64,000 nucleotides of DNA. It comes from Chondrilla cf. caribensis (Eukaryota > Porifera > Demospongiae > Chondrillida > Chondrillidae). Position numbers and translations under genes: made by a program. Where the stretch lies: NCBI GenBank assembly GCA_964020155.1, contig OZ026553.1, positions 5,309,009 through 5,373,008 on the forward strand, given 5' to 3'. Under the pieces are notes generated by a model. It searched no databases and was not told where the DNA came from. It saw only the letters and a program-made list of their open reading frames with translations. This document shows positions 6,991-62,604 of this stretch, piece by piece. Position 1 is the stretch's first letter; every line of letters starts with the position of its first letter.

Positions 6991-7031
6991 GCCCTGTCTG
7001 CTTTTGTTCAGTCGCTGTCACTTCAGCAGGA

Positions 7032-12886: not shown

Positions 12887-13866
12887 GTGAATTAGTGATT
12901 CTTTCAATTGCATGGACCTTACTCAATGTAGACTTAGTGTACTGTTGTAGTTATAATGCACATGGCTCTGTCTAAACCATTATCTCTGCATTATGTTAGT
13001 CATATGTGATCTAATAGCATTTACATTGTTTCTCTACAATGTCATGGTCCTAATTAGACTCTGAAAGCAGATTTGGAGGCCTTGACTGAAGCCCATGAAG
13101 AATTGCTGGTATTGTGCAACATGAGATTTGCTCTATTTAAATAATTAAACTATCCATTCAATGATATCTTGTAACTGCAGAAGAAACTGCAAAAATCAGA
13201 GACAGACTTGCTTGGAATGAGGGCAGCGAGGGTAGCTACTTTTTATCCAACACAGTGTGAAGTTTAATTATGATACTCTCTGTCTTCCCCAACTCTCCTT
13301 TTTATAGGATGCTCAGAAAACAAATCTTCAGGAGTCAATCAAATCACTCACTGATAGTAATGTACGTGTATGTTTGTTGTATAGCATACAATGATCATTA
13401 TTGTTATGGTTTTAAAAATAAGTTAAAAGTTAAATAAATATGTTCAGCTAAATGAATATAGCTCATATCTATCATAATATGTATCACTAACAGGTCGAAC
13501 TTAGTAAAAAAGATGAGGAAATCAAAAGAATGAAAGAGGATAGGAATTCGGTGTGTTTAATGCTGATATAGACAGACATACATACGTATTAAAATTATTT
13601 TTACAGTTGTTGAGTGGTGATATTCTTAATTTAAAATAGATAATTGCTGACAAAGACAAATTCTGGAAACAAGCAATTGAAACCAAGGTGAAATATAATC
13701 TTATATATTAAATAACCTATTGTGATTTGTATGTGCATGTATGTGTGTGTGGGTGTATGTGGGTAGGTGTTTCTATCCCTCACTCTGTGTGTTCGTATGT
13801 GGGTGGGTGTGATGTGTGTCTTTCTCTCTGTGTGTAATTATCTCTTCTTGCTTCCACTCTGTGTGT

Positions 13867-13936
<70 letters not shown>

Positions 13937-16900
13937 CTACATCCATTATTTCATGGTGTTTTCACTTCCCATTCACTTGTTTGCTGTAGGAGTTATTTGT
14001 TTCCCACCAGTATATATGTATCATTAGTTTGAACACTTATGTGTAGGACAGGGTCAAAGACCTGGAGAATCAATTAGCCAAACAAGAGAAAGTGAACCAA
14101 GATGCTAATCGTGACAGGCTAAATATGAAGCAACAATTGAAAAAGACTGAAGAAGAGAGTGAAAACTTGAAAAGATACAGAGATCAGTGCAGGAAATTGG
14201 AAGTAAATACATGTGACACCTAGTACCTTGTACAATGTACATGTGACACCTAGTACCTTGTACAATGTACATGTGACACCTAGTACCTTGTACAATGTAC
14301 ATGTGACAGCTAGTAACTTGTACAATGTTCGTGTGACAGATGGCATCTTGTACAACGTACATGTGACACCTAGTACCTTGTACAATGTACACATGACACC
14401 TAGTATCTTGTACAATGTACATGTGATACCTAGTACCTTGTACAATGTGCATGTGACAACTGGTATCTTGTACAATGTACATGTGACACATATATTTCAT
14501 TTGGTAAGATGATTTACAGTGTGTGTACGAGTATGTTGATATAGGATCATTGAGTAGTTGACATGTGTCTCTCAATCTTGTGACAGGTTCAGTTGAAGGA
14601 AGAAGAGGAGAAGCTAAGAGCAGCAGAGGAAGAAAAGACCAAATTGAATGCCAAATTGTCAAAAGCAGCAGAATCACTGAAAGTAAGTACTAGTTACTAC
14701 ACACTCTCTGTGCCGTATTACGTTTACTGCTCGAGACCCTAGGGCGCGAAGTGCCCGAGGGCGAGTGCAGTAAACAAAGCAATATGGCAGAGAGAGCATG
14801 TAGTAAGTGGCTTATCGCAAAATAGCCGCCTAGACGTTTGAATTCAAATACTTTTCTTCCCCTCGTTTCGATATTTCCAGTAATTTTGTTTCTCTTTCAA
14901 GAAAATGGTCTATCATAAGCATTAGCAGCCTTCCAGCAGTGAGGGAAGCCAACCGCTATCTATTGTGTAAGCGATTTGATTTCGACGTGGAAGATGACAA
15001 GTCCCAAAAACGAATATGGTGTGGTGCCCCAATTCTGGACGCTTTCTACTTTGGAACATCACGTATGATAATCGGTTGAATTTATTCAAATTTTTCAAAC
15101 GTTGTTTCGTAGATTGAGGATCAGTTTGATACCAAACTTGATCCGAAAAATGGCCGATTCGCGAAGAGAACAGTTTCGCAACAATCCAAAGTGTCCGAAA
15201 TTAGGAAGCGTCAGGGGTTCAGGGCACCTCACCATGAAAGCAGAGCAAAACAAATCGAGCCAATGAAGAAAGTTGTACGTTGTACACCAGTACGAAACTG
15301 ATTGATTGATTGACAATGGTCTTTTAAAGTGTTGATTGATGTAATAATTGTGTGGTTGCGTTGCTAGGTTTCAGGGGGCGCTTGCAGGTTACTGCAGTGC
15401 TGGTAACCTGTATACCGGCATACCAGTCTCTTTGATGTATGACGTCATCGGGCGATAAGTATTAGTATTGTTATTGTTCAATGTACATACATTTGACACC
15501 TAGTACCTTGTACAATGTACACATGCAGCTAGTACCTTGTACTATGTACATGTGACAGCTAGTAACACGTACAATGTATGTGTGACAGGTGGTACCTTGT
15601 ACAAGGTACATGTGACACCTAGTACCTTGTACAATGTACACATGACACCCACATAGTACCTTGTACAATGTACATGTGACACATATAATTCATTAAGGTA
15701 AGATGGTTTACAGTGTGTGTATGTATGGTTAATACAGAATCATTGAGTAGTTGACATGTGTGTCTCTTAATCTTGTGACAGGCTCAGTTGAAGGAAGAAG
15801 AGGAGAAGCTAAGAGCAGCAGAAGAAGAAAAGACCAAATTGAATGCCAAATGGTCAGAAACTGAGAAATCACTTGAAGTAAGTAATGGAATTGTTATTGT
15901 CCAATGTACATACATGTGACACCTAGTACCTTGTACAATGTACATGTGACACGTAGTACCTTGTACAATGTACACATGACACCTAGTACCATGTACAATG
16001 TACATGTGACACCTAGTACCGTGTACAATGTACATAAACACATATTATGATACATTTGATGGGATGATTTACAGTGTGTATTATGATAGAAGTTAGTTGA
16101 CTTGCTGAGCCTTAATAGATTTATGTGTATTTATTTGGACAATTACGTACATCACTTGTTAGCAAATTAACCGGTTAACGGTTACCAGAAATCAGGTAAA
16201 CCTTTAACTGATAAGCGTTAACTGATATCGGATTAACAGGTATAATATTTGTACAATATTTATGTGACACCTAGTACCTTGTACAATGTGCATGTGACAC
16301 CTAGTACCTTGTACAATGTACACATGACACCTAGTATGTTGTACAAATATACTATAATTATTTTGGTAGGATGATTTACAGTGTGTGTATGTATGAGTAT
16401 GTTAATACAGAATCATTGAGTAGTTGACTTGTGTCTCTCAATCTTGTGACAGGCTCGGTTGAAGGAAGAAGAGGAGAAGCTAAGAGCAGCAGAGGAAGAA
16501 AAGACCGAATTGAATGCCAAATTGTCAGAAGCCGAGAAATCACTTGAAGTAAGTATTGGAATTGTTATTATTAAGTGTACATCCATGTGTCACCTAGTAC
16601 CTTGTACAATGTACATGTTACAGCTAGTACCTTGTACAATTTACACGTGACACCTAGTATGTTGTACAATGTACATGTGACACCTAGTATCTTGTACAAT
16701 ATTTATATGACAGCTGGTACCTTGTACAATGTACATGGGACACATAAATTTCATTTGGTAAGATGATTTACATTGTGTGTATATATGAGTATGTCAATAC
16801 AGAATCATTTAGTAGTTGACGTGTGTCTCTCAATCTTGTGACAGGCTCGGTTGAAGGAAGAAGAGGAGAAGCTAAGAGCAGCAGAGAAAGAAAAGACCGA

Positions 16901-19900
16901 ATTGAATGCCAAATTGTCAGAAGCCGAGAAATCACTTGAAGTAAGTATTGGAATTGTTATTATTAAATGTACATCCATGTGTCACCTAGTACCTTGTACA
17001 ATGTACATGTTACAGCTAGTACCTTGTACAATGTACATGTGACAAATATACTGTAATTCATTTGATAAGATGATTTACCGTGTGTGTATATATGAGTATG
17101 TTAATACAGAATCATTGAGTAGTTGACGTGTGTCTCTCAATCTTGTGACAGGCTCGGTTGAAGGAAGAAGAGGAGAAGCTAAGAGCAGCAGAGGAAGAAA
17201 AGACCGAATTGAATGCCAAATTGTCAGAAGCCGAGAAATCACTTGAAGTAAGTATTGGAATTGTTATTATTAAGTGTACATCCATGTGTCACCTAGTACC
17301 TTGTACAATGTACATGTTACAGCTAGTACCTTGTACAATTTACATGTGACACCTAGTATGTTGTACAATGTACATGTGACACCTAGTATCTTGTACAATA
17401 TTTATATGACAGCTGGTACCTTGTACAATGTACATGGGACACATAAATTTCATTTGGTAAGATGATTTACATTGTGTGTATATATGAGTATGTTAATACA
17501 GAATCATTGAGTAGTTGACGTGTGTCTCTCAATCTTGTGACAGGCTCGGTTGAAGGAAGAAGAGGAGAAGCTAAGAGCAGCAGAGGATGAAAAGACCGAA
17601 TTGAATGCCAAATTGTCAGAAGCCGAGAAATCACTTGAAGTAAGTATTGGAATTGTTATTATTAAATGTACATCCATGTGTCACCTAGTACCTTGTACAA
17701 TGTACATGTTACAGCTAGTACCTTGTACAATGTACATGTGACAAATATACTGTAATTCATTTGATAAGATGATTTACCGTGTGTGTATATATGAGTATGT
17801 TAATACAGAATCATTGAGTAGTTGACGTGTGTCTCTCAATCTTGTGACAGGCTCGGTTGAAGGAAGAAGAGGAGAAGCTAAGAGCAGCAGAGGAAGAAAA
17901 GACCGAATTGAATGCCAAATTGTCAGAAGCCGAGAAATCACTTGAAGTAAGTATTGGAATTGTTATTATTAAATGTACATCCATGTGTCACCTAGTACCT
18001 TGTACAATGTACATGTTACAGCTAGTACCTTGTACAATGTACATGTGACAAATATACTGTAATTCATTTGATAAGATGATTTACCGTGTGTGTATATATG
18101 AGTATGTTAATACAGAATCATTGAGTAGTTGACGTGTGTCTCTCAATCTTGTGACAGGCTCGGTTGAAGGAAGAAGAGGAGAAGCTAAGAGCAGCAGAGG
18201 AAGAAAAGACCGAATTGAATGCCAAATTGTCAGAAGCCGAGAAATCACTTGAAGTAAGTATTGGAATTGTTATTATTAAATGTACATCCATGTGTCACCT
18301 AGTACCTTGTACAATGTACATGTGACACCTAGTACCTTGTACAATTTACACGTGACACCTAGTATGTTGTACAATGTACATGTGACACCTAGTATCTTGT
18401 ACAATATTTATATGACAGCTGGTACCTTGTACAATGTACATGGGACACATAAATTTCATTTGGTAAGATGATTTACATTGTGTGTATATATGAGTATGTT
18501 AATACAGAATCATTGAGTAGTTGACGTGTGTCTCTCAATCTTGTGACAGGCTCGGTTGAAGGAAGAAGAGGAGAAGCTAAGAGCAGCAGAGGAAGAAAAG
18601 ACCGAATTGAATGCCAAATTGTCAGAAGCCGAGAAATCACTTGAAGTAAGTATTGGAATTGTTATTATTAAATGTACATCCATGTGTCACCTAGTACCTT
18701 GTACAATGTACATGTTACAGCTAGTACCTTGTACAATGTACATGTGACAAATATACTGTAATTCATTTGATAAGATGATTTACCGTGTGTGTATATATGA
18801 GTATGTTAATACAGAATCATTGAGTAGTTGACGTGTGTCTCTCAATCTTGTGACAGGCTCGGTTGAAGGAAGAAGAGGAGAAGCTAAGAGCAGCAGAGGA
18901 AGAAAAGACCGAATTGAATGCCAAATTGTCAGAAGCCGAGAAATCACTTGAAGTAAGTATTGGAATTGTTATTATTAAATGTACATCCATGTGTCACCTA
19001 GTACCTTGTACAATGTACATGTTACAGCTAGTACCTTGTACAATGTACATGTGACAAATATACTGTAATTCATTTGATAAGATGATTTACCGTGTGTGTA
19101 TATATGAGTATGTTAATACAGAATCATTGAGTAGTTGACGTGTGTCTCTCAATCTTGTGACAGGCTCGGTTGAAGGAAGAAGAGGAGAAGCTAAGAGCAG
19201 CAGAGGAAGAAAAGACCGAATTGAATGCCAAATTGTCAGAAGCCGAGAAATCACTTGAAGTAAGTATTGTAATTGTTATTATTAAATGTACATCCATGTG
19301 TCACCTAGTACCTTGTACAATGTACATGTGACACCTAGTACCTTGTACAATTTACACGTGACACCTAGTATGTTGTACAATGTACATGTGACACCTAGTA
19401 TCTTGTACAATATTTATATGACAGCTGGTACCTTGTACAATGTACATGGGACACATAAATTTCATTTGGTAAGATGATTTACATTGTGTGTATATATGAG
19501 TATGTTAATACAGAATCATTGAGTAGTTGACGTGTGTCTCTCAATCTTGTGACAGGCTCGGTTGAAGGAAGAAGAGGAGAAGCTAAGAGCAGCAGAGGAT
19601 GAAAAGACCGAATTGAATGCCAAATTGTCAGAAGCCGAGAAATCACTTGAAGTAAGTATTGGAATTGTTATTATTAAATGTACATCCATGTGTCACCTAG
19701 TACCTTGTACAATGTACATGTTACAGCTAGTACCTTGTACAATGTACATGTGACAAATATACTGTAATTCATTTGATAAGATGATTTACCGTGTGTGTAT
19801 ATATGAGTATGTTAATACAGAATCATTGAGTAGTTGACGTGTGTCTCTCAATCTTGTGACAGGCTCGGTTGAAGGAAGAAGAGGAGAAGCTAAGAGCAGC

Positions 19901-22900
19901 AGAGGAAGAAAAGACCGAATTGAATGCCAAATTGTCAGAAGCCGAGAAATCACTTGAAGTAAGTATTGGAATTGTTATTATTAAATGTACATCCATGTGT
20001 CACCTAGTACCTTGTACAATGTACATGTGACACCTAGTACCTTGTACAATTTACACGTGACACCTAGTATGTTGTACAATGTACATGTGACACCTAGTAT
20101 CTTGTACAATATTTATATGACAGCTGGTACCTTGTACAATGTACATGGGACACATAAATTTCATTTGGTAAGATGATTTACATTGTGTGTATATATGAGT
20201 ATGTTAATACAGAATCATTGAGTAGTTGACGTGTGTCTCTCAATCTTGTGACAGGCTCGGTTGAAGGAAGAAGAGGAGAAGCTAAGAGCAGCAGAGGATG
20301 AAAAGACCGAATTGAATGCCAAATTGTCAGAAGCCGAGAAATCACTTGAAGTAAGTATTGGAATTGTTATTATTAAATGTACATCCATGTGTCACCTAGT
20401 ACCTTGTACAATGTACATGTTACAGCTAGTACCTTGTACAATGTACATGTGACAAATATACTGTAATTCATTTGATAAGATGATTTACCGTGTGTGTATA
20501 TATGAGTATGTTAATACAGAATCATTGAGTAGTTGACGTGTGTCTCTCAATCTTGTGACAGGCTCGGTTGAAGGAAGAAGAGGAGAAGCTAAGAGCAGCA
20601 GAGGAAGAAAAGACCGAATTGAATGCCAAATTGTCAGAAGCCGAGAAATCACTTGAAGTAAGTATTGTAATTGTTATTATTAAATGTACATCCATGTGTC
20701 ACCTAGTACCTTGTACAATGTACATGTGACACCTAGTACCTTGTACAATTTACACGTGACACCTAGTATGTTGTACAATGTACATGTGACACCTAGTATC
20801 TTGTACAATATTTATATGACAGCTGGTACCTTGTACAATGTACATGGGACACATAAATTTCATTTGGTAAGATGATTTACATTGTGTGTATATATGAGTA
20901 TGTTAATACAGAATCATTGAGTAGTTGACGTGTGTCTCTCAATCTTGTGACAGGCTCGGTTGAAGGAAGAAGAGGAGAAGCTAAGAGCAGCAGAGGATGA
21001 AAAGACCGAATTGAATGCCAAATTGTCAGAAGCCGAGAAATCACTTGAAGTAAGTATTGGAATTGTTATTATTAAATGTACATCCATGTGTCACCTAGTA
21101 CCTTGTACAATGTACATGTTACAGCTAGTACCTTGTACAATGTACATGTGACAAATATACTGTAATTCATTTGATAAGATGATTTACCGTGTGTGTATAT
21201 ATGAGTATGTTAATACAGAATCATTGAGTAGTTGACGTGTGTCTCTCAATCTTGTGACAGGCTCGGTTGAAGGAAGAAGAGGAGAAGCTAAGAGCAGCAG
21301 AGGAAGAAAAGACCGAATTGAATGCCAAATTGTCAGAAGCCGAGAAATCACTTGAAGTAAGTATTGGAATTGTTATTATTAAATGTACATCCATGTGTCA
21401 CCTAGTACCTTGTACAATGTACATGTTACAGCTAGTACCTTGTGCAATGTACATGTGACAAATATACTGTAATTCATTTGATAAGATGATTTACCGTGTG
21501 TGTATATATGAGTATGTTAATACAGAATCATTGAGTAGTTGACGTGTGTCCCTCAATCTTGTGACAGGCTCGGTTGAAGGAAGAAGAGGAGAAGCTAAGA
21601 GCAGCAGAGGAAGAAAAGACCGAATTGAATGCCAAATTGTCAGAAGCCGAGAAATCACTCGAAGTAAGTATTGTAATTGTTATTATTAAATGTACATCCA
21701 TGTGTCACCTAGTACCTTGTACAATGTGCATGTTACAGCTAGTACCTTGTACAATGTACACATGACACCTAGTATGTTGTACAATGTACATGTGACACCT
21801 GGTATCTTGTACAATATTTATGTGACAGCTAGTACCTTGTACAATGTACATGGGACACATAAATTTCATTTGGTAAGATGATTTACAGTGTGTGTATGTA
21901 TGAGTATGTTATTACAGAATCATTGAGTAGTTGACGTGTGTCTCTCAATCTTGTGACAGGCTCGGTTGAAGGAAGAAGAGGAGAAGCTAAGAGCAGCAGA
22001 GGAAGAACAGACCAAATTGAATGCCAAATTGTCAGAAGCCAAGAAATCACTTGAAGTAAGTATTGGAATTGTTATTATTAAATGTACATCCATGTGTCAC
22101 CTAGTACCTTGTACAATGTACATGTGACACCTAGTACCTTGTACAATGTACATGTGACACCTAGTACCTTGTACAATGTGCATGTGACACCTAGTATGTT
22201 GTACAATGTACACATGACACCTAGTATGTTGTACAATGTACATGTGACACCTGGTATCTTGTACAATATTTATGTGACAGCTAGTACCTTGTACAATGTA
22301 CATGGGACACATAAATTTCATTTGGTAAGATGATTTACCATGTGTGTATGTATGAGTATGTTATTACAGAATCATTGAGTAGTTGACGTGTGTCTCTCAA
22401 TCTTGTCACAGGCTCGGTTGAAGGAAGAAGAGGAGAAGCTAAGAGCAGCAGAGGAAGAACAGACCAAATTGAATGCCAAATTGTCAGAAGCCAAGAAATC
22501 ACTTGAAGTAAGTATTGGAATTGTTATTATTAAATGTACATCCATGTGTCACCTAGTACCTTGTACAATGTACATGTGACAAATATACTGTAATTCATTT
22601 GGTAAGATGATTTACTGTGTGTGTATATATGAGTATGTTAATACAGGATCATTGAATAGTTGACTTGTGTCTCTCAATCTTGTAACAGGCTCGGTTGAAG
22701 GAAGAAGAGGAGAAGCTAAGAGCAGCAGAGGAAGAAAAGACCGAATTGAATGCCAAATTGTCAGAAGCCGAGAAATCACTTGAAGTAAGTATTGGAATTG
22801 TTATTATTAAATGTACATCCATGTGTCACCTAGTACCTTGTACAATGTACATGTTACAGCTAGTACCTTGTACAATGTACATGTGACAAATATACTGTAA

Positions 22901-25900: not shown

Positions 25901-28900
25901 TCCATGTGTCACCTAGTACCTTGTACAATGTGCATGTTACAGCTAGTACCTTGTACAATGTACATGTGACACCTAGTACCTTGTACAATGTACATGTGAC
26001 ACCTAGTATGTTGTACAATGTACACGTGACACCTAGTATCTTGTACAATGTACATGTGACACCTGGTATCTTGTACAATATTTATGTGACACCTAGTACC
26101 TTGTACAATGTACATGTGACACCTAGTACCTTGTACAATGTACACGTGACACCTAGTACCTTGTACAATGTACATGTGACACCTAGTACCTTGTACAATG
26201 TACATGTGACACCTAGTACCTTGTACAATGTACATGTGACACCTAGTACCTTGTACAATGTACATGTGACACCTAGTACCTTGTACAATGTACACGTGAC
26301 ACCTAGTATGTTGTACAATGTACACGTGACACCTAGTATGTTGTACAATGTACATGTGACACCTGGTATCTTGTACAATATTTATGTGACAGCTGGTACC
26401 TTGTACAATGTACATGGGACACATAAATTTCATTTGGTAAGATGATTTACAGTGTGTGTATGTATGAGTATGTTAATACAGAATCATTGAGTAGTTGATG
26501 TGTGTCTCTCAATCTTGTGACAGGCTCAGTTGAAGGAAGAAGAGGAGAAGCTAAGAGCAGCAGAAGAAGAAAAGACCAAATTGAATGCCAAATTGTCAGA
26601 AGCCAAGAAATCACTTGAAGTAAGTATTGGAATTGTTATTATTAAATGTACATCCATGTGTCACCTAGTACCTTGTACAATGTACATGTTACAGCTAGTA
26701 CCTTGTACAATGTACATGTGACAAATATACTGTAATTCATTTGGTAAGATGATTTTCCGTGTGTGTATGTATGAGTATGTTAATACAGAATCATTGAGTA
26801 GTTGACTTGTGTCTCTCAATCTTGTGACAGGCTCGGTTGAAGGAAGAAGAGGAGAAGCTAAGAGCAGCAGAGGAAGAAAAGACCAAATTGAATGCCAAAT
26901 TGTCAGAAGCCGAGAAATCACTCGAAGTAAGTATTGGAATTGTTATTGTCCAATGTACATACATGTGTCACCTAGTACCTTGTACAATGTACATGTTACA
27001 GCTAGTACCTTGTACAATGTACATGTGACACCTAGTACCTTGTACAATGTACATGTGACAAATATACTGTAATTCATTTGGTATGATGATTTACCGTGTG
27101 TGTATGTATGAGTATGTTAATACAGAATCATTGAGTAGTTGACGTGTGTCTCTCAATCTTGTGACAGGTTCAGTTGAAGGAAGAAGAGGAGGAGCAAGAT
27201 GAGAAGCTAAGGGCAGCAGAGGAAGAAAAGACCAAATTGAATGCCAAATTGTCAGAAGCTGAGAAATCACTTGAAGTAAGTATTGGAATTGTTATTATTA
27301 AATGTACATACATGTGACACCTAGTACCTTGTACAATGTACATGTTACAGCTAGTACCTTGTACAATGTATATGTGACACCTAGTATGTTGTACAATGTA
27401 CGGTACACGTCAAAGATTATGTACGCATTTCCGCGTATGCCTGCAGAATGCATTTACAGCTTTATGCGGAAGTCGTTACAGGTGTCCGCGGAAGTCATTA
27501 CGAGTGTCCGCGGATATCAGCGCGTACGAGTATTGTTGCAACTCTTCAAAATACTACATAATGAGTGAGAAAACTTTTATTCAGACAACAAGCTAAGATA
27601 TTAATAATAAGTTTTAATATTGTACACGGACGGAAGGTAAAGTAATAAATAATTTGGTAAAATAAGAAATTGTCAATAATTCGTCAAACGTACGTTTACA
27701 AATAAAAAAATACTTATTGTAACGGCTGTTTGGCTCTAATCTTGCGGCAAACTTCGTCCATTGCATGTCTAATTTCTCTATCAGCGTTAACTTTTGACTC
27801 CACTCGATCCAGAGGAAACTGCTTATAGCACGACTCTCTAATGGCGTCTACCTTTGCTTCATTCAGCGACTGTTTTCCCCCAACTCCTCGGACGTTAGAC
27901 AATTTCTTTTCTTCATCTGTGAAGAGTGCCTGAGTTAATCTGGCAGCCAAATTCCGGCGTGATCTGCACCCTGACATTGCTCGATCAATAATAACGTACG
28001 ATATAGTAAACTTCTGGATTCCAGTATCTCTAGAATTATTAGGGAGATTTCCTACATCCTGTAGTACACTGGTCGTCGCGGAAGGCAGTAGATTTTCGAT
28101 CTCGTGTAGTATCATCGTCTCGGCCTCTGGTTGTAGTGTTGAAGAAAGGGGTCCTGTTCCAGGCACATACTCATTTGGCGCTGGCTCTTGGTGGTAGGAG
28201 CTTCGTATAGACAATTCCAACGCTCTTATCTTGGCATTAATGCCAGAAATACAATCCATTAGGTCTTCGAACCGTTCCTTAAAGTCAGATAAGCCACTTT
28301 CACGTATCATTTGCACTATTTCGTCCAATCTCTTCGAAGTGGAATCCACAGCAACACTTGACTGCTCTGATGAACTGCTACCCGCGGTAATAATTGGAAT
28401 TTCTACGGTCTTTTCCAGCGGAAAGGTGCTATTGGGCTTTTCCGGCTGAGGATGTGGGGCAGGACTTCCTATTTCTAATAAAAATGGTTCGTCTTCTCTG
28501 CTTCGCTTTCTTTTGTTTCTCACTCTGCTAACTTCTTCTTGCATCGGAATTTCTGGAGAAGAAGCGTCAATCTTGGTCACTTTGCATGTATAGAGTCTTT
28601 TCGACTTCCCCCAAATCGCGTTGACAGTTTGGCCAACCATAATGTCGCCTTTCTTCACATTTGTTCGCTTTATCCAAGATCTTTTGCCTTGGGATCTTCC
28701 TGTATCCAGCCATTCTACTTCAATTTTATCGTTAGAAGACATTTTGAAACACACTTGGCACACTATTAATCGAATACGCACGTACGTAGATAGCCACTGA
28801 CACTCGGTCTGCTGGTAAAATGCAAGATTGTGAGTTTTTATAGCTTGTAAGTGGATATCCGTGGTTATCTGAGGATATCTGCGTCTACCAATGAGATTGC

Positions 28901-31900
28901 AGACGATTATACAACTGAGTCCGACATATAGGTGCTAATTTCCCTCTGTTAACAGGTATTTTTGTCACAGTATATCTGTAAACAAAGTGCAGGCTCTACA
29001 GTTATTGTATCTACTGGAAACTTAATAAGAGAATGGGACTAACAACTTACCAGCGAGAAAGAGTAATTACCTTATGGAGAATGTCTGGGACATATACTAC
29101 GTGTACTGAGATTCAGCGAGCTTTAGGGAGAGAAGGAATTACCACAACAAGACAAACTGTGCGGAGAACTATTGACAGATGGAAATTGCTTGGAGGTGTG
29201 TGTGACAGGGCTAGAAGTGGGCGTCCAAAAGCTATACCAGATGAACATTATAAATATATCGATCACCTTCTCTCGGAAAATGATGAATTAACAGCAAAGG
29301 ACCTCATTGAACACATGACAGCAAAATTTGGACCAGTAACATATTCTGAACGGACTATGGCACGAGCAAGGCAGGACTTAGGCTGGACGTATTCAACTGC
29401 TCGATACTGTCAGGCTATCAGAGAACAAAACAAACTGAAACGACTTGTATGGTGCCAAGATCGCTTAAAGGAGGATGAGAGATTTGACAATGTCATCTTT
29501 ACTGATGAGTCATCTATTGTGTTGGAGGTGCATAGAAGAAAGAGCTTTAGGAAGAGAGGTCAACCACGCAAGTTAAAGTATAAACACAAACATCCGTTGA
29601 AAATTCATGTATGGGCTGGCATATCGAAGCAGGGTGCTACAGGAATTGTCATGTTCAATGGTATTTTGACTGCAACCAGATATGCAGACATTTTGTCAGC
29701 TTCCTTGATTCCATTTATTCAGACAGCATACAGTGATGGCCATAGACTCTATCAAGATAATGACCCAAAGCATACTTCCAGGTACATTCAGCACTTTTTT
29801 GAGGAGCATGATATCACTTGGTGGAAGAGCCCGGCTGAAAGCCCGGATCTCAATCCAATCGAGAAAGTTTGGGGAAGCATGAAAACCTATCTCCGGGACA
29901 AACACAAGCCCAAGAATATGGCTGATCTTAAAGCTGGCATAAAACTTTACTGGAAGAAGATGACTCCAGACGTTTGTGCAAGGTACATTGCTCATTTATC
30001 AAAAGTTTTACCTGATGTAATCACAGAACAAGGAGGTCCTACAGGACATTAGCTATAGGTTTTTTATTGTTAGTATTATAAATTATTATTATAATTGTTG
30101 TACCGTATTCTTATTTATTACTAAAGTTCTGATTTCTCCTTCAGTGAATTATAAACGAAATGTACAGCATTATTCCCTTGTATAATAACTTCAGTGATTG
30201 CCGCATAGTAATTAAACTTCGACCTTTACCCTTTAATGTTTACTTACGTACGCAAACTAACATACGTACGTACGTACGTACGTAATACGTATACGAGAAT
30301 CATCTGTGGAAATTATGTCCGCATACTTTACCGCGGACTCGTACGGACAAATAACGCGGATAATCCGCAATTGGAAGCAACGATTTTTGCGGAAACGCGT
30401 ACATAATCTTTGGCATGTACCGTACATGTTACACCTAATATCTTGTACAATGTAGGTGTGACAGCTAGTAACTTATACAATGTACACATGACACCTAGTA
30501 TCTTTTAAAAAGTTCATGTTACAACTAGTACCTAGTACAATGTACATGTGACAAATATACTGTAATTCATTTGGTATGATGATTTACAGTGTGTGTATGT
30601 ATGAGTATGTTAATACAGAATCATTGAGTAGTTGACTTGTGTCTCTCAATCTTGTGACAGGCTCGGTTGAAGGAAGAAGAGGAGAAGCTAAGAGCAGCAG
30701 AGGAAGAACAGACCAAATTGAATGCCAAATTGTCAGAAGCCGAGAAATCACTTGAAGTAAGTATTGGAATTGTTATTATTAAATGTACATCCATATGTCA
30801 CCTCTCAAAGGAGAATTGTGGAGGCTGGCTTCTGTGGTGGCTTCGTGGCTCAGTGGTTTATTACGGCTTTAGTCAGACACCCTGGGTTCGAGTCCTGCAG
30901 TTGCCGGTTTTTCGCTTTTCTCCTTCCTCTCAGCAGGCTGAATTCCACTTAGCTTTCGTATCTGTCATACACCTGCTTACTGATATATACAATCATCTAT
31001 GATTTAAGATTAGATGAAATGATTACACCCACTAAAAACCAAGTAGACTAGGAGTAGTAGTGAAGATATCTAACGAAGTTAGTAAAAGAACTGTTATGTC
31101 ACCTAGTACCTTGTACAATGTACATGTTACAGCTAGTACCTTGTACAATGTACATGTGACAGCTAGAACCTTGTACAATGTACATGTGATAGCTAGAACC
31201 TTGTACAATGTACATGTGACAAATATACTGTAATTCATTTGGTAAGATGATTTACCGTGTGTGTATGTATGAGTATGTTAATACAGAATCATTGGGTATA
31301 TAGTTGACTTGTGTCTCTCCATCTTGTGACAGGCTCAGTTGAAGGAAGAAGAGGAGAAGCTAAGAGCAGCAGAGGAAGAAAAGACCAAATCTAATGCCAA
31401 ATTGTCAGAAGCCGAGAAATCACTTGAAGTAAGTATTGTAATTGTTATTGTCCAATGTACATACATGTGACACCTAGTACCTTGTACAATGTATGTGACA
31501 CCTAGTATCTTGTACAATATTTATGTGACAGCTGGTACCTTGTACAATGTACATGGGACACATAAATTTCATTTGGTAAGATGATTTACAGTGTGTGTAT
31601 GTATGAGTATGTTAATACAGAATCATTGAGTAGTTGACTTGTGTCTCTCAATCTTGTGACAGGCTCGATTGAAGGAAGAAGAGGAGAAGCTAAGAGCAGC
31701 AGAGGAAGAAAAGACCAAATTGAATGCCAAATTGTCAGAAGCCGAGAAATCACTTGAAGTAAGTATTGGAATTGTTATTATTAAATGTACATCCATGTGT
31801 CACCTAGTACCTTGTACAATGTTCATGTTACAGCTAGTACCTTGTACAATGTACATGTGACAAATATACTGTAATTCATTTGGTATGATGATTTACCGTG

Positions 31901-37900: not shown

Positions 37901-40900
37901 GGTTACCTTTTCTGGAATTCTTATTGTACATACATGTCACACTAGTACCCAGTACGATGTACACATGACACTAGTATTTTCAATAAAACAACAATCATTA
38001 TTAAATATATAACTACACAATATATTGGACATGTACTTAGATTATATTCAATAAACAAGGATGCAAATAAAGTGTCATTAATACCGTGTACAATGTACAC
38101 ATGACACCTCGTATTTGTACAATGTACACATGACACGTAGTACCTTGTACAGTGTACACATGGCACCTAGTATTTGTACAATGCACACATGACACCTAGT
38201 ACCTTGTACAGTGTACACATGACACCTAGTACCTTGTACAGTGTACACATGACACCTAGTATCTTGTACAACGTACACATGACATTAATACCTTGTACAA
38301 TGTACACATGACATCTAGTATTTTCTACAATGTACACATGACACTAGTACCTTGTATAATGTACATGTGACACCTAGTACCTTGTACAATGTACACATGA
38401 CACTTAGTATCTTGTGTATACAATGTACACAACACTTGTACCTTAATAATAAACACATATGCAGCGGTTAACTACCTGAATACTGTAACACTTTCTTTTC
38501 AGGATGCTGTGAAAGAGTTGAATGAAAGATGGCGTAAATCACAACTTCTCCATTCTAGAGAAACGAAGACACTCAGGGTATTGATTGCATGTATTTGTAT
38601 TTTTTCTCTATTACAAGAATGTTTATCCAATCCACTTGCAGGAGAAGTGTGGTGAAATGGAGGAGAAATTACACATTAAGGTATTACACGTATTGCAATA
38701 GTATGGTATGGAGAGGTAATCGTAATTTGATTGTTGTTTGAAGGAATCAGAGAAGGAACAAACAGTTCGTGAACTGAAAGATGAACTAAAGGATCAGGTG
38801 ATTCTAGTCTGATTTACATTGTGTTGTAATAGTTTACTGCACCAAGAGATAACCTTTTTGTTTTGAAATTCTACATAAATATTATTCTTTTTATTATTTC
38901 AAGGAACAAAAGAAAGAACTTGCAATTCAAGATTTGGAGAAGATGAAATTGAAGGCTGATACCCTTGAGAGAGAGAAAGATACTCTGAAAGTAGACAGTT
39001 TCTCTGAATGTCAAATTCAACATTTCACAGTTAACATGTCCTTTGCAGGAATCTGAATTAAAATTAAAAGAAGAGCTTGAACAGAAGGAAATGGAGATCA
39101 GTCAGTATGAAGATACTGTAAAGGTTAATTACTTGTAGCTGTTATTAATATTTGGTAATGCAAGACATACTCATAGCTATTGGTTATTCACACAGAAACT
39201 GAGAGAAGAGGTTAAAGACACTGCCAAACTACAACAGAAGTTGCGAACAGAAGAGAAGGAATGCAAGGTGAGGATATTCTTCTGTCTGCATTGCTATAGT
39301 GATTGTTGCATGGTTATTGAGAGTATCACAGGAAAAACTGTGCATTTGCTTCTGTTACTGCACACTGACCGCAAGAGTGCAGTATCAACTAAACGCTCAT
39401 CACTGATCATAACATTTGACCACAATTTGAAAATTTTCACCCCATTGTCTGGCTTCATTACATCAATCATGGACACAATACTAATACGTAATTTTAAACA
39501 GTAAGTATAACATGTACATATTACGGTATGAGAAAGCTACAAGTGGGTTCTTAAAGTCATCAAAAATGTATAATGTGCTTTTCGGGTGCTAACACCCGCT
39601 TATGACACTGAAGACCACAAAGCGCCCACAACAAGACAGTTACAGTATGTCCAAGAGTGCATTGTTTTTATTACACTTACTCTTGGGTGCTTCACACACT
39701 CGTTGATAGCTTGACCAATAAATACACCAATGCACCCTAGGACGTACAGTAGCCATGTCATAACTTGTATACTGTGTATATGTATGAGTATGTTTACAGG
39801 ATCATTGAGTACTTGACTTGTGTGTCTCTCAATCTTGTGACAGGCTCGGCTGAGGAAAGAAGAGGAGAAACTAAGAGCAGCAGAAGAAGAAAAGACCAAA
39901 TTGAAGTCCAAATTGTTGAAAACTGAGAAAACGCTTGAGGTACATAAGTATTGTAATTGTTATTGTTCAATGTACAAACGTGTCACACTTAGTACCTTGT
40001 ACAAAGTACATGTAACACCTAATACCTTGTACAAAGTACATGTGACACCTAGTACTTGTACAATGTACATGTGACACCTAGTACTTGTACAATGTACATG
40101 TGATATCTAGTACCTTGTACAATGTACATGTGACACCTAGTACCTAGTCCAATGTACATGTAACACCTAGTACCTATATATATGTTTAGGAGGTGAAAGG
40201 TACCTTAGGGGAGACATTGAAACAGTTGCAGGACATGAAAAAGTCAAGCACACAGACTGATGTGAGTCATGCCATTATTCAAGTTGTTATGTGAAGTACT
40301 TTGTGACTGTACGGTACATGTCGCGAGAAACTAGAATTTTTCCGCAGATCTGCCGCGTAGGATATCCGCATATAGCCGTGCGGCAAGTTATCGATATCCG
40401 CGAACACTCTGCGGAATGGTCATCTGGCACCCGCGGCAAGAGAAACGTACGTACGTAGATAGGTACGGTAGTCCGAAATTTCTATGCGGTAGTTCGCAAT
40501 TGTCACGGTGTTCAGACTGAAATTTGTTCCTACAGGTTTGTCCGAATTGATTTTCTTAGCGCGACATTACGCTCTCGAAAGCCCAAATAGTGAGCAAAGA
40601 TATTGTCAGCGTCCGATCTCTAGTGCCGCCATATTTTCAACATCGTATAGCCAGCCCCTTTTCTGATCGCTTCCTCATTCGGAAGCTGGAGAAGGAAATA
40701 ATAAGGAAGCGATCAGTTCATTTGTATACACGTCGTCGTACGTTAGTAGATTCTTCTTCGGAAAACAAACAGATTACGCGTACTAGCCCGACTTCTACTA
40801 TGTTCCTTTAATTGTACATATGTTCGTAGCCACACCTCGCTCAAACAGTTTTTCGCCTTCTTCGGAAAGCCGTATACGTACCTCTATTCCCCTTCTGCGG

Positions 40901-43900
40901 AAAGCGTTCCACAAACGTTTCGAGGACATTCTGCAGACTGCTCACATACGTTCTGCGGAAATTTTCGCGGACATTCACCGATAACCGCGACGGCAAACCG
41001 CGGAAATCGGCGGAAAAATTCAAGTTTCTCGCGACATGTACCGTATATATTATCCACTCTAGCGCATGAATTGATATTGGGTTAATACCGCATTTTATTA
41101 CTCTCACAGGATGAGAAGAACGCTCAGATACGCTCCCTTGAAGGGGAGAAGCAACGTTTAACTAAGAAATTGCAGGACATGGAAGATACAACTAAACAGC
41201 AGAAAGTATATATCTATAATTATGAAAATTGCTTGTCAGTGATCCAAATTACATCTTATCTTGTGTACTGTTGATGTTAGGATCTAACGTTTACACATGA
41301 CACCTAGTACCTTGTATAATGCACACATGACACCTGATACCTTGTATAATATGCACATAAACCTAGTACCTTGTACAATGTACAAGTGGAACATGCCATG
41401 TATAATTTTGTTATACTGTATGACAACCACCGACAGACAATTGAAGGACAGTGTGTGCATGGGCATAGGCGTGTAGTAGAGGAGAAATGAGTAGTTGATG
41501 TGTGTGTATCAATTTTGTGACAGGCTCAGTTGAAGAAGGAAAAGGAGAAGCTAAGAGCAGCAGAGGAAGAAAAGACCTCATTGAGTATCAGGTTGATGAA
41601 AGTTGAGGAATCATTAAAAGATACCAAAGTGAGTTATTGTTGTACAATGTACATGTGATATCTAGCTCAAGGGCGCCCACAATGCATACACACAGTATGC
41701 CAGTGCGTACCAGATTCCAATAAGGTCTTTGAAAATAATCCCTTGTAAATAGCTAGCTCTGTGTCCAGAAGAATAGCAAGACAAGCCTTATTTAAGTCAA
41801 ATCCACCTGTAGCCGTGATATTTTTGTTATTAAATATTGCAGTGATTGAAAACTAACAATTTGCTCCTGAATCGATCACTACCACCAGACTAACACTGAG
41901 TACTTGGAAACCTCGGTACTATAGTGGCCATTTTGTGATTGCACAATGCTTGTGAATGTGTGCGTACCAACTGTAAACTTCCTGTGGCCACCCCTGTAAC
42001 TAGTATCTTTAGAGCTTACACATGACACCTAGTACCGTGTATGATTTCAATCTGATATTCAGTATCTTGTATAGTGTACTTGTGACACCTAGTACCTTGT
42101 ACAATGTACACAACACACTCAGTACACATAACAACCTTTAACTTGACAATTTGAAGACTCCCATTTTGTGTCTGGTGTTTAGGATTAGATGATTCGTTCC
42201 AGTGTGTGAAATTAGGTGTGTAGTAGAGGGCAACTTGTGTCTCTCAATCTTGTGACAGGCTCAGTTGAAGGAAGAAGAGGAGAAGCTAAGAGCAGCAGAA
42301 GAAGAAAAGACCAAATTGAATGCCAGGTCGATAAAAGCTGAGAAATCACTAAACGATACCAAAGTTAGTCATTGTTATACAATGACACCTAGTACCTTTT
42401 ACAATGTACACGTGACACCTAGTACCTTTTACAATGTACACGTGACACCTAGTACTTTGTATAATGTACATGTGACACCTAGTACCTTGTACAATGTACA
42501 TGTGACACCTAATACCTCGTATACAACACACTCAGTACACATAACAACTGCTAACGTGACAATTTGAAGACTCACAATTTTGTGTCTGGTGTTTAGGATT
42601 AGATGATTCGTTCCAGTGTGTGAAATTAGGTGTGTAGTGGAGGACAACTTGTGTCTCTCAATCTTGTGACAGGCTCAGTTGAAGGAAGAAGAGGAGAAGC
42701 TAAGAGCAGCAGAGGAAGAAAAGACCTCATTGAGTACCTGGTTGATGAAAGCTGAGGAATCACTAAAAGATACCAAAGTGAATTATTGTTGTACAATGTA
42801 CACATGACATCTAGTACATTGTACAATGTGTACATGAAACCTAGTACTTTGTACAGTGTACATGTGGAACAACATACCTCATATGACCCCTAACATGACA
42901 ATTGAAGACCCCCATTTCAAGTAGTGTTTAGAATTGGATGAGTTTTCACGGTGTATGGAGTAGGTGTGTAGTAGAGGACAATTGAGTATATAGTTGACTT
43001 GTGTGTCTCTCAATTTTGTGACAGGGTCAGTTGAAGGAAGAAGAGGAGAAGCTAAGAGCAGCAGAGGAAGAAAAGACCGAATTGAATACCAGGTTGATAA
43101 AAGCTGAGAAATCACTAAACGATACCAAAGTTAGTCATTATGTACAATGTACATGTGATGCCTGGATAGTGCCTTGTACAGTATACACAAGGCACCTCAT
43201 GCATTGTTACAGTACAATATTCATGCAATACCTAGTGACTTGTACAGTGTACACTTGACACCCAGTGTACAACAACCTCTAACATGACAATTGGAGGACT
43301 CACCATTTATGTAGTGTTTAGGGTTAGACAATTCTTTACAGATTGTGAAAGTAGGTGTGTAGTAGGGGACAATTGAGTCAAGGCCGTAGGAGCCAGTACA
43401 GCAGCCACGGCTTCAGCTATACCAGTCTTCAGACCATAGTTAAAGAGATGAAAAGGAAGACACAGTAGTTACTATTAATTTTAGCAAATAGTATTGATAT
43501 ACTTATAACCTACTGTAATGAAGAATATCTATTTGTATTAATTTTTACTTTCTAATCAAATCCAATCTAAAAATAGGCTCAAATAGTACAGAATTCAAGA
43601 TATATTGCGTTGCTTTGCTTTGTAACACCATGTTGCATTTCTTTCTCGTGACGAATTCGGATATTCAGGCCGGATTGGGAATATAAAAAGGCTGTTAACA
43701 CGTCCGCTTCTGGCCTTCTGGAGGATATTCCAGATGCACCTCATCAGCCCAAACGAGTTGTATTCCCTAAAGATCATTTGGTGCGACTAAAATTGAAAGT
43801 GTTTGTTCAAATCAAAGTGGTTGAAGATGTGGAAGTGTGAGGATTGATGTGTGCTGACATACGTACATGCAAAAGGGAAGAAACTACTAGCTTCTAATAA

Positions 43901-46004
43901 ATCTTTCTCCGAGTCATCGTTAGTTTAGGCAGATGACGTGTTTTACGAGACATGATGAGTCTGGTTTGCATTTAAAAAGGCTGCTGATCTCATGATCGTG
44001 ATTCCAATACCCCACAAAGACGTTAAAGAGATGCTTCCCCCCTTTTAACTGACTAAATGCGCGCAAACCACCTTTATGTTATATACCTGTCTGTTATGTT
44101 GCTCAAAACATAACAGACAGGTATTCCTTTGCATGGTGATAGAGATGACACGAATATAGTAACAGCATCCAGTTACTTGTCGATGATGTAATGATTTGTG
44201 GACTGGTGTATTTATTGGACTTTTAAAATTAGCTAGATACTGCAGAATTTTGCAGTATCTAGCTAATTTTAAAAGCCAGATAAATACACCAGTCTATAAA
44301 TCCGGAATGAAATTATTACATCAATAATGGGATTACATGGAATTGCATTTTCGGCCAATTAATGTATTCGCCGTATTGCCTCTGGAGACCTTCCTACGGG
44401 CCTGTGAGTAGTTGACTTGTGTGTCTCAATCTTGTGACAGGCTCGGTTGAAGGAAGAAGAGGAGAAGCTAAGAGCAGCAGAGGAAGAGAAGACCTCATTG
44501 AGTACCAGGTTGACAAAGGCTGAGGAATCACTAAAAGATACCAAAGTGAGTCATTGTTATACAATGACACCTAGTACCTTGTACAATGTACACATGACAC
44601 CTAGTACCTTGTACAATATGCACATGACACCTAGTACTTTGTACAGTGTACATGTGGAACAAAATTCCTCATATGACCCCTAACATGACAATTGGAGACC
44701 CCATTTCAAGTAGTGTTTAAAATTGGATGAGTTTACACAGTGTATGGAGTAGGTGTGTAGTATAGGACAATTGAGTAGTTGACTTGTGTGTCTTAATCTT
44801 GTGACAGGCTCGGTTGAAGGAAGAAGAGGAGAAGCTAAGAGCAGCAGAGAAAGAAAAGACCAAATTGAATGCTAGGTTGACGAAGGCTGAGGAATCACTA
44901 ATAGATACCAAAGTGAGTCATTGTTGTACCATGACACCTAGTACCTTGTACAATGTATACGTGACACCTAATACCTTGATAATGTATACGTGACACCTAG
45001 TACCTTGTACAATTTCAATCTGATATTCAGTACCTTGTACAGTGTACTTGTGACACCTAGTACCTCGTACACAACACACTCAGTACACTAACCCTAACAA
45101 CTTCTAACTTGACTATTTGAAGACTACCAATTTTGTGTCTGGTGTTTAGGATTAGATGATTCGTTCCAGTGTGTGAAAGTTGGTGTGTAGTGGAGGACAA
45201 CTTGTGTCTCTCAATCTTGTGACAGGCTCAGTTGAAGGAACAAGAGAAGAAGCTGAGAGCAGCAGAGGAAGAAAAGACCAAATTGAATGTCAGGATGATG
45301 AAAGCTGAGAAATCACTAAAAGATACCAAAGTTAGTCATTATGTACAATGTACATGTGATGCCTGGATAGTGCCTTGTACATTGTACACAAGGCACCTCA
45401 TGCATTGTTACAGTACAATATTCATGCAATACCTAGTGACTTGTTCAATGACATGTGACACCTAATATGGTGTATAATTAATACCTAACACCTAGTATAA
45501 TGTACACTTGACACTCAGTGCACGAAAACCTCTAAAATGACTATTGGAGGACTCACCATTTATGTAGTGTTTAGGCTTAGACAATTCTTCACAGTGTGTG
45601 AAAGTAGGTGTGTAGTAGAGGACAATTGAGTAGTTGACTTGTGTGTTTCAATCTTGTGACAGGCTCAGTTGAAGGAAGAAGAGGAGAAGCTAAGAGCATC
45701 AGAGGAAGAAAAGACCTCATTGAGTACCAGGTTGAGGAAGGCTGAGGAATCACTAAGAGATACCAAAGTGAGTCATTGTTGTACAATGTACATGTGATAC
45801 CTGGCTAGTACCTTGTACACTGTACACATGATACTTAGAACCTTGTACATACCTTGTGCAATGTACACATGACACCTAGTATCTTATACCTACAACGTAC
45901 ACGTAACATCTATTACCTTATGCAATGACCATACTGTAATTTGTATTGCATGAAGCTGAAGCCACATGTACTAAGTTGTAGTAATCTTCAGGTAAGTTTT
46001 TGTG

Positions 46005-46080
<76 letters not shown>

Positions 46081-46084
46081 ACAT

Positions 46085-46120
<36 letters not shown>

Positions 46121-49100
46121 ATTTTTGTATGCATATACGGTAGGCGCCAAAATAAACTTTGCGTTCCGTTCCGTCTAAACGCGACTTCGTACTTTTTGCC
46201 TACGGAAAAAAAACGAAAACGGAACGAAACGGAACGAAACGGAACTTGCCAAAAGACGGCGAGAACGAAATGTGTTGATTTGAACGTATTCTATCAAAGT
46301 ACAGAACGATTTGGCTAGATACTCAATTATGAAGATCTCGTCGCTTTAATACCGAATAAAAACAACTACCACAAATGGATTCGTCTAGGCAGTGGAGAGA
46401 TCTTCTGGAATGAACGATCGATCTAGTGAACTCACCTCTTGATATAATTATGACCCATCGCTATTGGAATACGAATTCCTTCTGCTCTCAAACGAACTTG
46501 GATAGTAGGTGATTTGGTACCATTTGAATAGCGAACTGAAATACTTTATGGCTATAGACTATGGTTGCTTCAGCACACGTCTTTCCGGAGTAAATCGGAC
46601 TTGAATGACACACGACGAAATGTACACACGTTTATAAAGTTATGTGTTAGTTAGCGTTGATCAACACCGTTCGTTTTCTAAGGAATAGAACGAAACAAAA
46701 CGCTACGGACGGACGGAAAAAAGACGAAAACGGAACGATCCGTTCGACCGTTTCGTATTCGTCCGTACGAAACGGAACGCAAAGTTTTTTTTGGCGCCTA
46801 CCGTATGTGAGTATGTGTATGACCGATTGTATGTATAGGTGTATATGTGTTAGCATATGCATATGGATATGAGTGTACATGGTTCAATGCGGTATACCAG
46901 TGTAGTAGTGTTTTTAAGTAACTACATTATGGATTTTATCCCACCAGAGAGAAGTTGACACCTTGAAGACACAGTTGAAGAATAAAGAACAAGAAGTGTA
47001 CTCACTAGGTGAACAGCTAACTCAGGCCACAACCAGGGCTAACACAGCTGAATGGAAATGGAGGCAGTTAGATGTGAGGTTGAAGCTAGGCTATGTGTGT
47101 GTGTCAGGTTCCTTAAGTCTCAACAATACCTTGTATGTACCTTGTGCAAAGTACATTTAATATATGTATTGATACCGTGTACAATGTACTAGTTTTGTGA
47201 CAACCCCCAACACGTTTATTAAAAGATTACCCCATTTATGTAGTGTTGAGGACTAGATAATACCTCACAGTGTGTACAAGTAGGTGTGTAGTAGAGGACA
47301 ATTGAGTAGTTGACTTGTGTGTCACAATCTTGTGACAGGCTCGGTTGAAGGAAGAAGAGGAGAAGCTAAGAGCAGCAGAGGAAGAAAAGACCTCATTGAG
47401 TACCAGGTTGACAAAAGCTGAGGAATCACTGGATAATGAAAAAGTGAGTTATTACTGTACAATGTACACGTGACACCTAGTACCTTGTACAATGTACACA
47501 TGACATTCCATACCTTGTACAATGTACATATGACACATCCACATGATTGTCAAGAGATTCCCCATGCCGAGTAGTATTCAAATGCACTTCACAGTGTGTG
47601 GATGTAGATGTTTAATCTTGTGACAGACTCTGTTGAGGGAAGAAGAGGAGAAGCTAAGAGCAGCAGAGGAAGAAAATACCAAATTGAATGCCAAATTATC
47701 AGAAGCCGAGAATTTACTGGAAGTAAGTATTGGAATTGATATTGTTCAGTGTATGTGTGACACCTAGTACCTTGTACAATGTACACATCACAGTTCCTAC
47801 CTTGTGCAATGTATACGGGAAACTTAGTACCTACATAGTACCTTGTACAGTGAGTACTCATTAACTTTTGCTTGAGAAATATGAGGATTAACAAGTTTGG
47901 GGATTAACTGGATATACATTACTAATTATAGATTACAGTGAATTCCCATTAAACTGCCAATTCCCATGTACCAACCTGTTTGTTATACTGCGTTGTAGTA
48001 CATTTAATGTACTTCCTGTTACAGTTTGTTTTGCATCGCTAGTCAGTATAGTTTCTGAGTTACGATTTGAATTATACCTTACAGAACTCTGCAATTAGGT
48101 ATATGCTGTTAAACATTCACTTCTGGTAAAAGTAAGTACTTTCTGCATACTAACCACGTTACGTATGACATACTTTACAATGAAACTGAAACTTGGCCAG
48201 ACTGCAGGGTGAACATTGTAGATACATATGATGCAATAATCAAGATTTGCCAGAAATAAAATTTAATACGTACTGTTCGCTGATTTTGCCATGATATATC
48301 GACTGCTTGATTAGTGTGCAAAAAGGGCCTTTTTCATATCCTGTCACATATACATGTGCTTATGAATATCCAGTTAATCTGCCAAACTCATTAATCCACT
48401 GTACTTTTGGAAATTGAATTGTGGTGGAGTAACGACAATTCACTCCATACTGGTACTGTAAAATTGTAACAAATAAGAAGATTCTGCAGATAAAGCAGTG
48501 GCTGAATAATGAGAAATCCCTGTATGTGTGATAGGATCTGAGTAATGGGTTAATTAAATGTGTGCATTTGCCTTTTGGATAGCATCATAACAGAGCTTAA
48601 AGATGCTTTTGTCTAATCTATTTCGTTTCTGATGTACAGCAGCTGAATTTATAACTTGCTTTTAGCAATAACAGTTTTGAGAATTATTTACCTTGTGTAC
48701 ATAAAGGAGGCGAATGAAACCTTGGAAGAAAAACACAAGCATTTGCAGGAAATGCAACAGTCACACTCCCGGACTGATGTGAGTGTATGCCACCTTCAAT
48801 GTTAGGTTATGCAATTAAATTTGAATTCAATGCAATTAAATTTGAATTCAATGCAATTTAGTCTCGAAGCAATCAATTTAATACATGCATAGTACTGATA
48901 ATAAATTATTGCTTTCTGTAATAATCATCTCTATCTTGTGCTGCTATCACAGGATGAGAAAAACAATCACATACAGAAACTTGAAGAGGCAAAGCAACAT
49001 TTTATTGACAATTTACAGGACATGGAAGATAGGATCAAAAGTCAGGAGGTAACTAATGTTGTTTGCTTAATTAATTTTCTGAGTTATATTTGCAGGTTGG

Positions 49101-55100: not shown

Positions 55101-55449
55101 TTGATCACTTAGAGGACTAGCTCAAGGGAAGTGGCAATTGCAAATTGTTATCTCAGAGTAATACAGTCATATTTCTGACAATATCCATATTTGTGACACT
55201 TTCGTGAGCTTTTTGTGGTTCTCAATCCATTTGAACCGTTTACCTAAATTTATTACTTGAAGAGTATCCTTGAGTACCAGGTAGTAGATTTTACCCTTGC
55301 AGATCAATTGCTAAAACATCTGTGTATCACCCGTGAGGATCATCTTTGTGCACAGAAGTGTCCACAATAATAAATTATAGTGATACATACAAAAATCTGC
55401 AGACTGAGTTCTGTATAGCACATGCATGTGTGTGTTTAAGTGTGTGTGT

Positions 55450-55513
<64 letters not shown>

Positions 55514-55528
55514 GTGTGTGCGTGTGTG

Positions 55529-55586
<58 letters not shown>

Positions 55587-55606
55587 CGCATGTGTGTGTG
55601 TGTGTG

Positions 55607-55644
<38 letters not shown>

Positions 55645-61220: not shown

Positions 61221-62604
<1,384 letters not shown>

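Follow-up and report, generated by a model that had tools for sequence, protein, structure and literature searches.

In the leucine-rich repeat (LRR) genes of Tetrahymena, tandem exons of exactly 90 bp occur in numbers of 1–51 per gene in T. thermophila, the outcome of a recent clonal expansion for which unequal crossing over has been proposed (PMC6564038). In the kinase ROCK, a coiled coil of 107 nm has kept its length for more than 600 million years, and it was the length of this coil and not its sequence that mattered in cells (Truebestein et al., PMC4686654). Here we analyse a stretch of 64,000 nucleotides from the sponge Chondrilla cf. caribensis (contig OZ026553.1, positions 5,309,009 to 5,373,008 of the forward strand; referred to as the window), which is predicted to hold one very large gene, W, in which a kinase exon is followed by a coiled coil, 53 copies of a single exon included, and by an orphan C-terminal exon.

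W shares with the Tetrahymena genes tandem short exons of equal length and phase (40 of its first 42 consecutive units are of 96 nt, all in phase 0) and an exon number that varies among paralogs, whilst differing in that its units do not encode LRRs but a charged, proline-free helix of coil type, in its phase 0 rather than phase 2 introns, in being one kinase gene rather than one of thousands, and in having an intronic minisatellite rather than a LINE-like element (PMC6564038). With ROCK it has in common a kinase domain at one end, a long coiled coil and another domain at the far end; ROCK, however, is an AGC kinase with conserved coil length, whereas W combines a TKL-like kinase and an orphan C-terminal domain with a coil length that differs between neighbouring paralogs (PMC4686654). 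Dscam, too, holds extensive tandem arrays of exons within a single gene; its exons are mutually exclusive (PMC1397879), whilst the units of W are near-identical and might all be spliced together, one after another. The plan of W is comparable to that of ROCK without W being a member of that family, and while equal-length exon arrays of this size (Tetrahymena LRR genes) and coil-tethered kinases (ROCK) are already known, their combination appears to be new; our literature search, incomplete in its coverage, returned nothing on such an exon array in a kinase gene, sponge genes included. Length-setting proteins built from many repeated, phase-compatible exons also include titin, with its PEVK region, and nebulin, which are muscle filament proteins and not fusions of kinase and coil. 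The MLK and DLK leucine-zipper kinases do show a TKL kinase domain followed by a dimerising coiled coil, although these zippers comprise a few tens of residues and are not known to involve an exon array.

Using the first copy (14587–14682) as query, nhmmer returned 53 unit exons between 14587 and 47722, all on the plus strand, as are all features of W: the 96-nt form accounts for 42 of them and the 105-nt form for nine, with one copy each of 108 and 93 nt. A first-pass annotation of the window had arrived at the same total. It had also described the main array (14587–34608; nhmmer and splice check) as 42 tandem copies of 96 nt, and here the number was correct but the uniform length was not: 40 copies have 96 nt, copy 33 (27168) has 108 nt and copy 42 (34516) has 93 nt. 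The nine 105-nt copies (41524–47443, 35 residues each; nhmmer, exon scan and splice check) and the two outliers (unit 43, 39844–39939, nhmmer and splice check; unit 53, 47627–47722, nhmmer), each of the latter with 96 nt, which for unit 43 requires the unusual donor GTACAT, were recovered where that annotation had placed them. Its assertion that all copies keep splice sites and frame also stood, as the acceptor AG was found in 53/53 units, the donor GT in 53/53 (GTAAGT 43, GTGAGT 5, GTTAGT 3, GTGAAT 1 and GTACAT 1, the last in unit 43 alone) and an in-frame stop in 0/53, with every unit in phase 0. Including 34 other coil exons, all 87 passed a scripted check for AG/GT borders, length divisible by three and absence of stops. 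An exon scan gave 82 exons on the plus strand (53 starting at units, 29 elsewhere) versus one when the opposite strand was scanned, although the scan is not fully independent, since its splice weights were set by hand and its residue weights were partly trained on the coil exons of this gene, units included. The nhmmer copies and this strand difference together rule out a chance repeat. Across the genome (137 Mb, 37 contigs), the unit exon had at least 40 matches, of which 39 fall within the window and the remaining one some 160 kb past its end, a lower bound with 40 of 63 candidates scored.

The hydrophobic residues recur with a period of 3.555 (= 32/9) in the 42-unit run and of 3.500 in the nine 35-residue units, and the 1,726 residues encoded by all units comprise no proline, one glycine and 54% charged residues. 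A periodicity of 3.5–3.6 without helix breakers is what a coiled coil would display, as judged from sequence only, and the 32-residue unit would then correspond to three heptads plus one hendecad. At 0.1485 nm per residue, the 42-unit run (1,347 residues) would measure about 200 nm and all units about 256 nm when fully extended; the complete predicted coiled-coil rod comprises about 3,080 residues, 1,726 of them from the 53 units.

That one gene joins the kinase to the repeat-exon coil, as proposed in the first-pass annotation, is supported by a paralog (A, G000:C8:5255314), the kinase of which lies 65 kb upstream of that of W: A is colinear with W from the kinase to the C-terminal exon, with conserved kinase, N-terminal coil, C-terminal coil and C-terminal exons, and separate genes for kinase and array were rejected on this ground. 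In the gene model, W comprises no fewer than 89 exons and encodes 3,642 residues, of which 361 belong to the kinase, 1,726 to the units, 1,351 to the remaining coil and 204 to the C-terminal exon. The kinase exon (11804–12886, 361 aa, TKL-like by Pfam and motifs) has a donor that is conserved in A, and because it begins with an acceptor and has no start codon ahead of the domain, an upstream 5' start exon is expected, although none was found. Six short N-terminal coil exons follow (13058–13108, 13181–13231, 13308–13361, 13494–13550, 13640–13687 and 14047–14202; alignment to A, phase and splice check), of which five have a counterpart in the alignments to A and the one at 13181 was placed by the exon scan. 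Beyond the arrays lie the C-terminal coil exons (48707–59180; alignment to A, exon scan and splice check), again colinear with A; five exons of W (13058, 13640, 14047, 48707 and 59106) were placed by hand from this alignment. The terminal exon (59242–59856) encodes the 204-residue domain and stops with TAA at 59854–59856, showing 63% identity to protein P0111 and 57% to paralog A, and the ends of all three differ by no more than a few residues. Onward splicing at 59842 was considered but is the less likely option, given the in-frame stop that closely follows this position in W and A and the fact that P0111 also ends there.

The open reading frame (ORF) at 11804–12895 matches PF07714 (1.9e-34, 119.6 bits, cut-off 23.1) and PF00069 (1.6e-32, 113.4 bits, cut-off 31.7). 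Its best solved relatives are CTR1 and IRAK4, which account for each of the 22 PDB sequences with a match at E ≤ 1e-10, and this points to the TKL-like group. W carries neither the AGC-type kinase domain that defines ROCK and MRCK, given these PDB matches, nor any Pfam match to their PH and C1 domains in the C-terminal exon, with the short coil exons mostly not scanned singly.

Searching the genome with the kinase exon gave 112 matches, the best seven of which share one contig and strand and fall inside a 0.38-Mb stretch: W itself, paralog B (84%), paralog A (74%) and four others (38–41%). The first-pass annotation had not recognised a kinase fused to a coil of this many near-identical cassette exons; the unusual feature is the array and not the fusion itself: in all six other plus-strand kinases of the cluster, short phase-0 coil exons follow in the exon scan (2, 4, 5 and 6 of them within 1.5 kb in the four distant ones), and three related proteins from JGI records (P0017, P0018 and P0020) run from the kinase straight into coil by eye, where Pfam sees the kinase part only. 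The coil exons behind the other cluster kinases indicate that a kinase plus a short-exon coil is the plan of this family, of which the 53-copy array represents the extreme. In paralog A, the scan gave 37 coil exons, which include a single clear 105-nt unit as well as a diverged one; its scanned coil of 1,483 aa, a total that excludes hand-placed exons, is similar to the 1,351 aa that remain in W without the array. Paralog B (G000:C8:5452469) has six clear units and one diverged unit together with many other coil exons in seemingly repeated blocks. Its kinase lies about 64 kb before the first (diverged) unit, and no W-type N-terminal or C-terminal coil exons were seen within 96 kb, for which reason B may be rearranged or carry another tail. 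The kinase of B also has DFV in place of DFG and may be inactive. The 53 units of W thus stand against one clear plus one diverged in A and six plus one in B, as expected from the earlier suggestion that coil length evolves readily.

A 30-nt minisatellite (one rotation TTGTACAATGTACATGTGACACCTAGTACC; repeat finding) is scattered over the introns of W between 14208 and 47832, its core occurring 100 times on the plus strand of the window and 0 times on the other, and being present in 42 of the 52 between-unit intervals. For a 210-base piece of it, 87 of at least 92 genome matches lie at 5.258–5.630 Mb of contig C8, inside the kinase cluster, with two on C6 and three on C2; the count is a lower bound, as very common words were skipped and the query's own place is absent from the 92 matches. 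The occurrence of the minisatellite in these intervals and its near confinement to the kinase cluster suggest unequal exchange as the likely engine of array growth. The monomers of the array, mainly of 307 and 392 bp, are arranged in an ordered pattern and recur in pairs and triplets. The longest exact repeat within 14587–34700 measures 1,127 bp, and such exact repeats and the near-identical blocks could be taken to mean that the array length is an artefact of assembly. We regard this as highly improbable: 22 of the 30 monomers tested (units 3–32) are distinct, the monomers, mainly of 392 and 307 bp, succeed one another in an ordered pattern, and the array is interrupted by a transposon as well as by diverged exons. 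Repeats on a scale of about 1 kb should moreover be resolvable by long reads of ordinary length. The transposon in question is a DNA element with 45-nt terminal inverted repeats (89% complementary) in the intron between units 33 and 34 (27390–30433; inverted repeats and Pfam), which contains a DDE_3 ORF on the plus strand (28982–30052) and a divergent BEN ORF on the minus strand (27714–28934, BEN score 28.1, cut-off 23.2) and may be a two-gene Tc1/IS630-like element.

With a mean identity of 98% among units 3–30, the copies also bear on the question of how many of them enter one mRNA. All units being in phase 0, they could be skipped singly or in groups, and tandem arrays with exclusive use exist in Dscam (PMC1397879), such that W might include one or few units per transcript as a choice of isoform or a regulated length. 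Near-identical copies would, however, yield almost no protein diversity when used in this way, and we therefore think such mutually exclusive or alternative use, the latter implied by the term 'cassette' in the first-pass annotation, improbable. As for the origin of the two main unit types, the three genes W, A and B all contain the 105-nt type, and two of them, W and B, the 96-nt type as well, which suggests that the shorter unit was probably derived from the longer one; the support for a clade of the 96-nt type in the unit tree is weak (0.38).

The explanation that we favour, with moderate confidence, is that W encodes a kinase with a fast-lengthening helical spacer, and belongs to a cluster in which genes of kinase plus coil are arranged in tandem. 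This explanation builds on the anatomy, the frame, the colinear paralog, the difference in copy number, the minisatellite and the helical periodicity, all read directly from the DNA, and it supposes that all units are joined in one mRNA, that the rod is dimeric, that it acts as a spacer and that the kinase is active. The recent growth of the array would have proceeded by unequal exchange between introns, aided by the minisatellite, copying single exons as well as blocks of two or three exons; since all exons are in phase 0 and their splice sites are intact, every copying event would lengthen the protein by 32 residues in frame. The rod would then serve as a tether that keeps a dimeric kinase at a distance from the binding partner of the C-terminal domain, and unit number would set the reach of the kinase. 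A more specific and rather doubtful version is that of a molecular ruler, in which a minisatellite-driven exon number would set this reach in 4.7-nm steps and vary among individuals, with a 35-residue heptad unit having lost 9 nt at its 3' end to give the 32-residue unit of three heptads and one hendecad, so that the superhelix goes from 3.5 residues per turn to 3.556. Kinases such as ROCK keep the length of their coil, which presumably serves to position the enzyme. In the present case, length has apparently been varied in steps within one cluster whilst both protein ends were kept, which offers a natural test of whether a coil is a ruler or neutral filler; in addition, near-identical exon arrays are extended beyond LRR and muscle genes, with an intronic minisatellite as a possible engine.

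Selection was analysed by the ratio of non-synonymous to synonymous substitution rates (dN/dS, NG86 method, short exons). For the kinase, dN/dS was 0.39 between W and A and 0.45 between W and B; between W and A, eight C-terminal coil exons joined gave 0.42 (singly 0.15–0.70, with two at 0.65 and 0.70) and the C-terminal exon gave 0.20. These values point to purifying selection on the kinase, the outer coil and the C-terminal exon. In case of the units, the 105-nt type showed 0.37 between W and A and 0.08–0.42 in four comparisons between W and B, each on single 35-codon pairs, and the 96-nt type of W compared with a unit of B (B82260) gave 2.80 at a synonymous divergence (dS) of 0.027. Length differences among units amount to 9, 12 and 3 nt, each a multiple of three, and gap cells over all 53 copies make up 0.12% in the exon versus 0.4–9.7% in intron bins, counted on the columns of the 96-nt reference copy with insertions left uncounted. 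The donor hexamer is identical across the 40 main-array copies of 96 nt; since copies of 108 and 93 nt are excluded from this set by length, its lack of exon gaps is no evidence by itself. Among 41 copies of 96 nt, variable sites at codon positions 1, 2 and 3 number 11, 13 and 12, and although one additional change, placed on the consensus codon, would create a stop, no copy contains one. The gene is under constraint, which within the young array is visible in frame and splicing only.

Several results weigh against the spacer reading. The same 41 copies carry 9 synonymous and 30 non-synonymous distinct changes where 60 and 204 are possible; 21 private changes in the 40 main-array copies divide into 3 synonymous and 18 non-synonymous; and core positions (7 of 32) hold 5 of 23 residue variants, as by chance. 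Residue changes inside the array thus look neutral. The kinase shows HGD for HRD and DFD for DFG, which makes its activity less certain. The C-terminal exon has no match in Pfam or PDB, its AlphaFold model from a two-sequence alignment reached a predicted local distance difference test (pLDDT) score of 33.8 and was left unused, and a protein search with a spliced query (N-terminal coil exon plus units 1–4) gave nothing at E ≤ 1e-6 among 8,000 candidates scored. DFG itself is present in 4 of 12 related proteins (P0014, P0017, P0018 and P0022) and in 3 of 4 distant paralogs. W retains the Lys as well as the catalytic and the metal-binding Asp, and its kinase may be active.

The neutral changes and unprotected core positions support a serious rival, namely that the gene is real and the array a tolerated expansion of harmless in-frame helix, driven by the minisatellite, in which unit number has no function. 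Also in agreement with it are the great variation of unit number among paralogs and the two other gains of length in this gene (see below), which look like a general permissiveness. Against this rival, not one of the 53 copies has a stop, a frameshift or a lost AG or GT; the low ratios between units of W and those of A and B indicate long-term constraint on the unit as well, albeit with the short pairs and the discordant B82260 value given above. Overall, we judge neutral expansion possible but on the unlikely side, and retain the spacer as the explanation of choice.

The two further routes by which the same gene gained coil lie in its C-terminal part. The first is a 99-nt in-exon repeat (33 residues, 4.3 copies; 58456–58881, repeat finding), the exon of which has 726 nt in W versus 351 nt in paralog A, and the second a tandem exon triplet (exons at 53519, 53865 and 54082, spanning 53519–54165; exon scan and comparison with A) of related coil exons of 96, 84 and 84 nt, for which one counterpart was seen in A. 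Pfam matches of 58314–59090 to Lambda_Bor and HrpF, above or just above their cut-offs, were taken as low-complexity noise within the 33-residue repeat. Two exons of the C-terminal region (51538–51978 and 56862–57008) show a dS of about 0.10 relative to A, whereas 0.3–1.4 was obtained for the remaining C-terminal exons analysed, a difference suggestive of gene conversion between W and A.

The remaining coil exons of W lie between and within the arrays: five diverged ones at 38503–39267 (exon scan alone), two at 40190–41205 (from translations) and one among the nine 105-nt units at 46948–47073 (exon scan). Judged from translations and not from an alignment, unit 43 and the two exons after it (39844–41205) seem to be a duplicate of the block formed by unit 53 and the exons at 48707 and 48953 (47627–49048). 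Unit 43 (39844–39950) looks intermediate at its 3' end between the 105-nt and 96-nt types and could show the route of the 9-nt loss.

W is flanked by two kinase ORFs on the minus strand. The end of the first (1161–2475) is, by eye, hydrophobic and might span a membrane; for the second (61510–62604), a counterpart is located at the corresponding position behind paralog A. A reverse transcriptase ORF (6981–9853, plus strand; RVT_1, 67.9 bits within 7840–9414) marks a retroelement that lies shortly before the kinase exon. Elsewhere in the assembly, a contig of 19,283 bp (C37) proved to be the mitochondrial genome and shows the source to be a sponge, most likely a demosponge; it has a COX1 containing seven TGA codons and 24 tRNA genes, all on one strand (ARAGORN). 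It also contains a 78-residue ORF that resembles atp9, so named from its sequence; this gene is reported from all sponge mitochondrial genomes then published except that of Amphimedon (PMC2267718) and is counted among the standard demosponge mitochondrial genes (PMC2800124).

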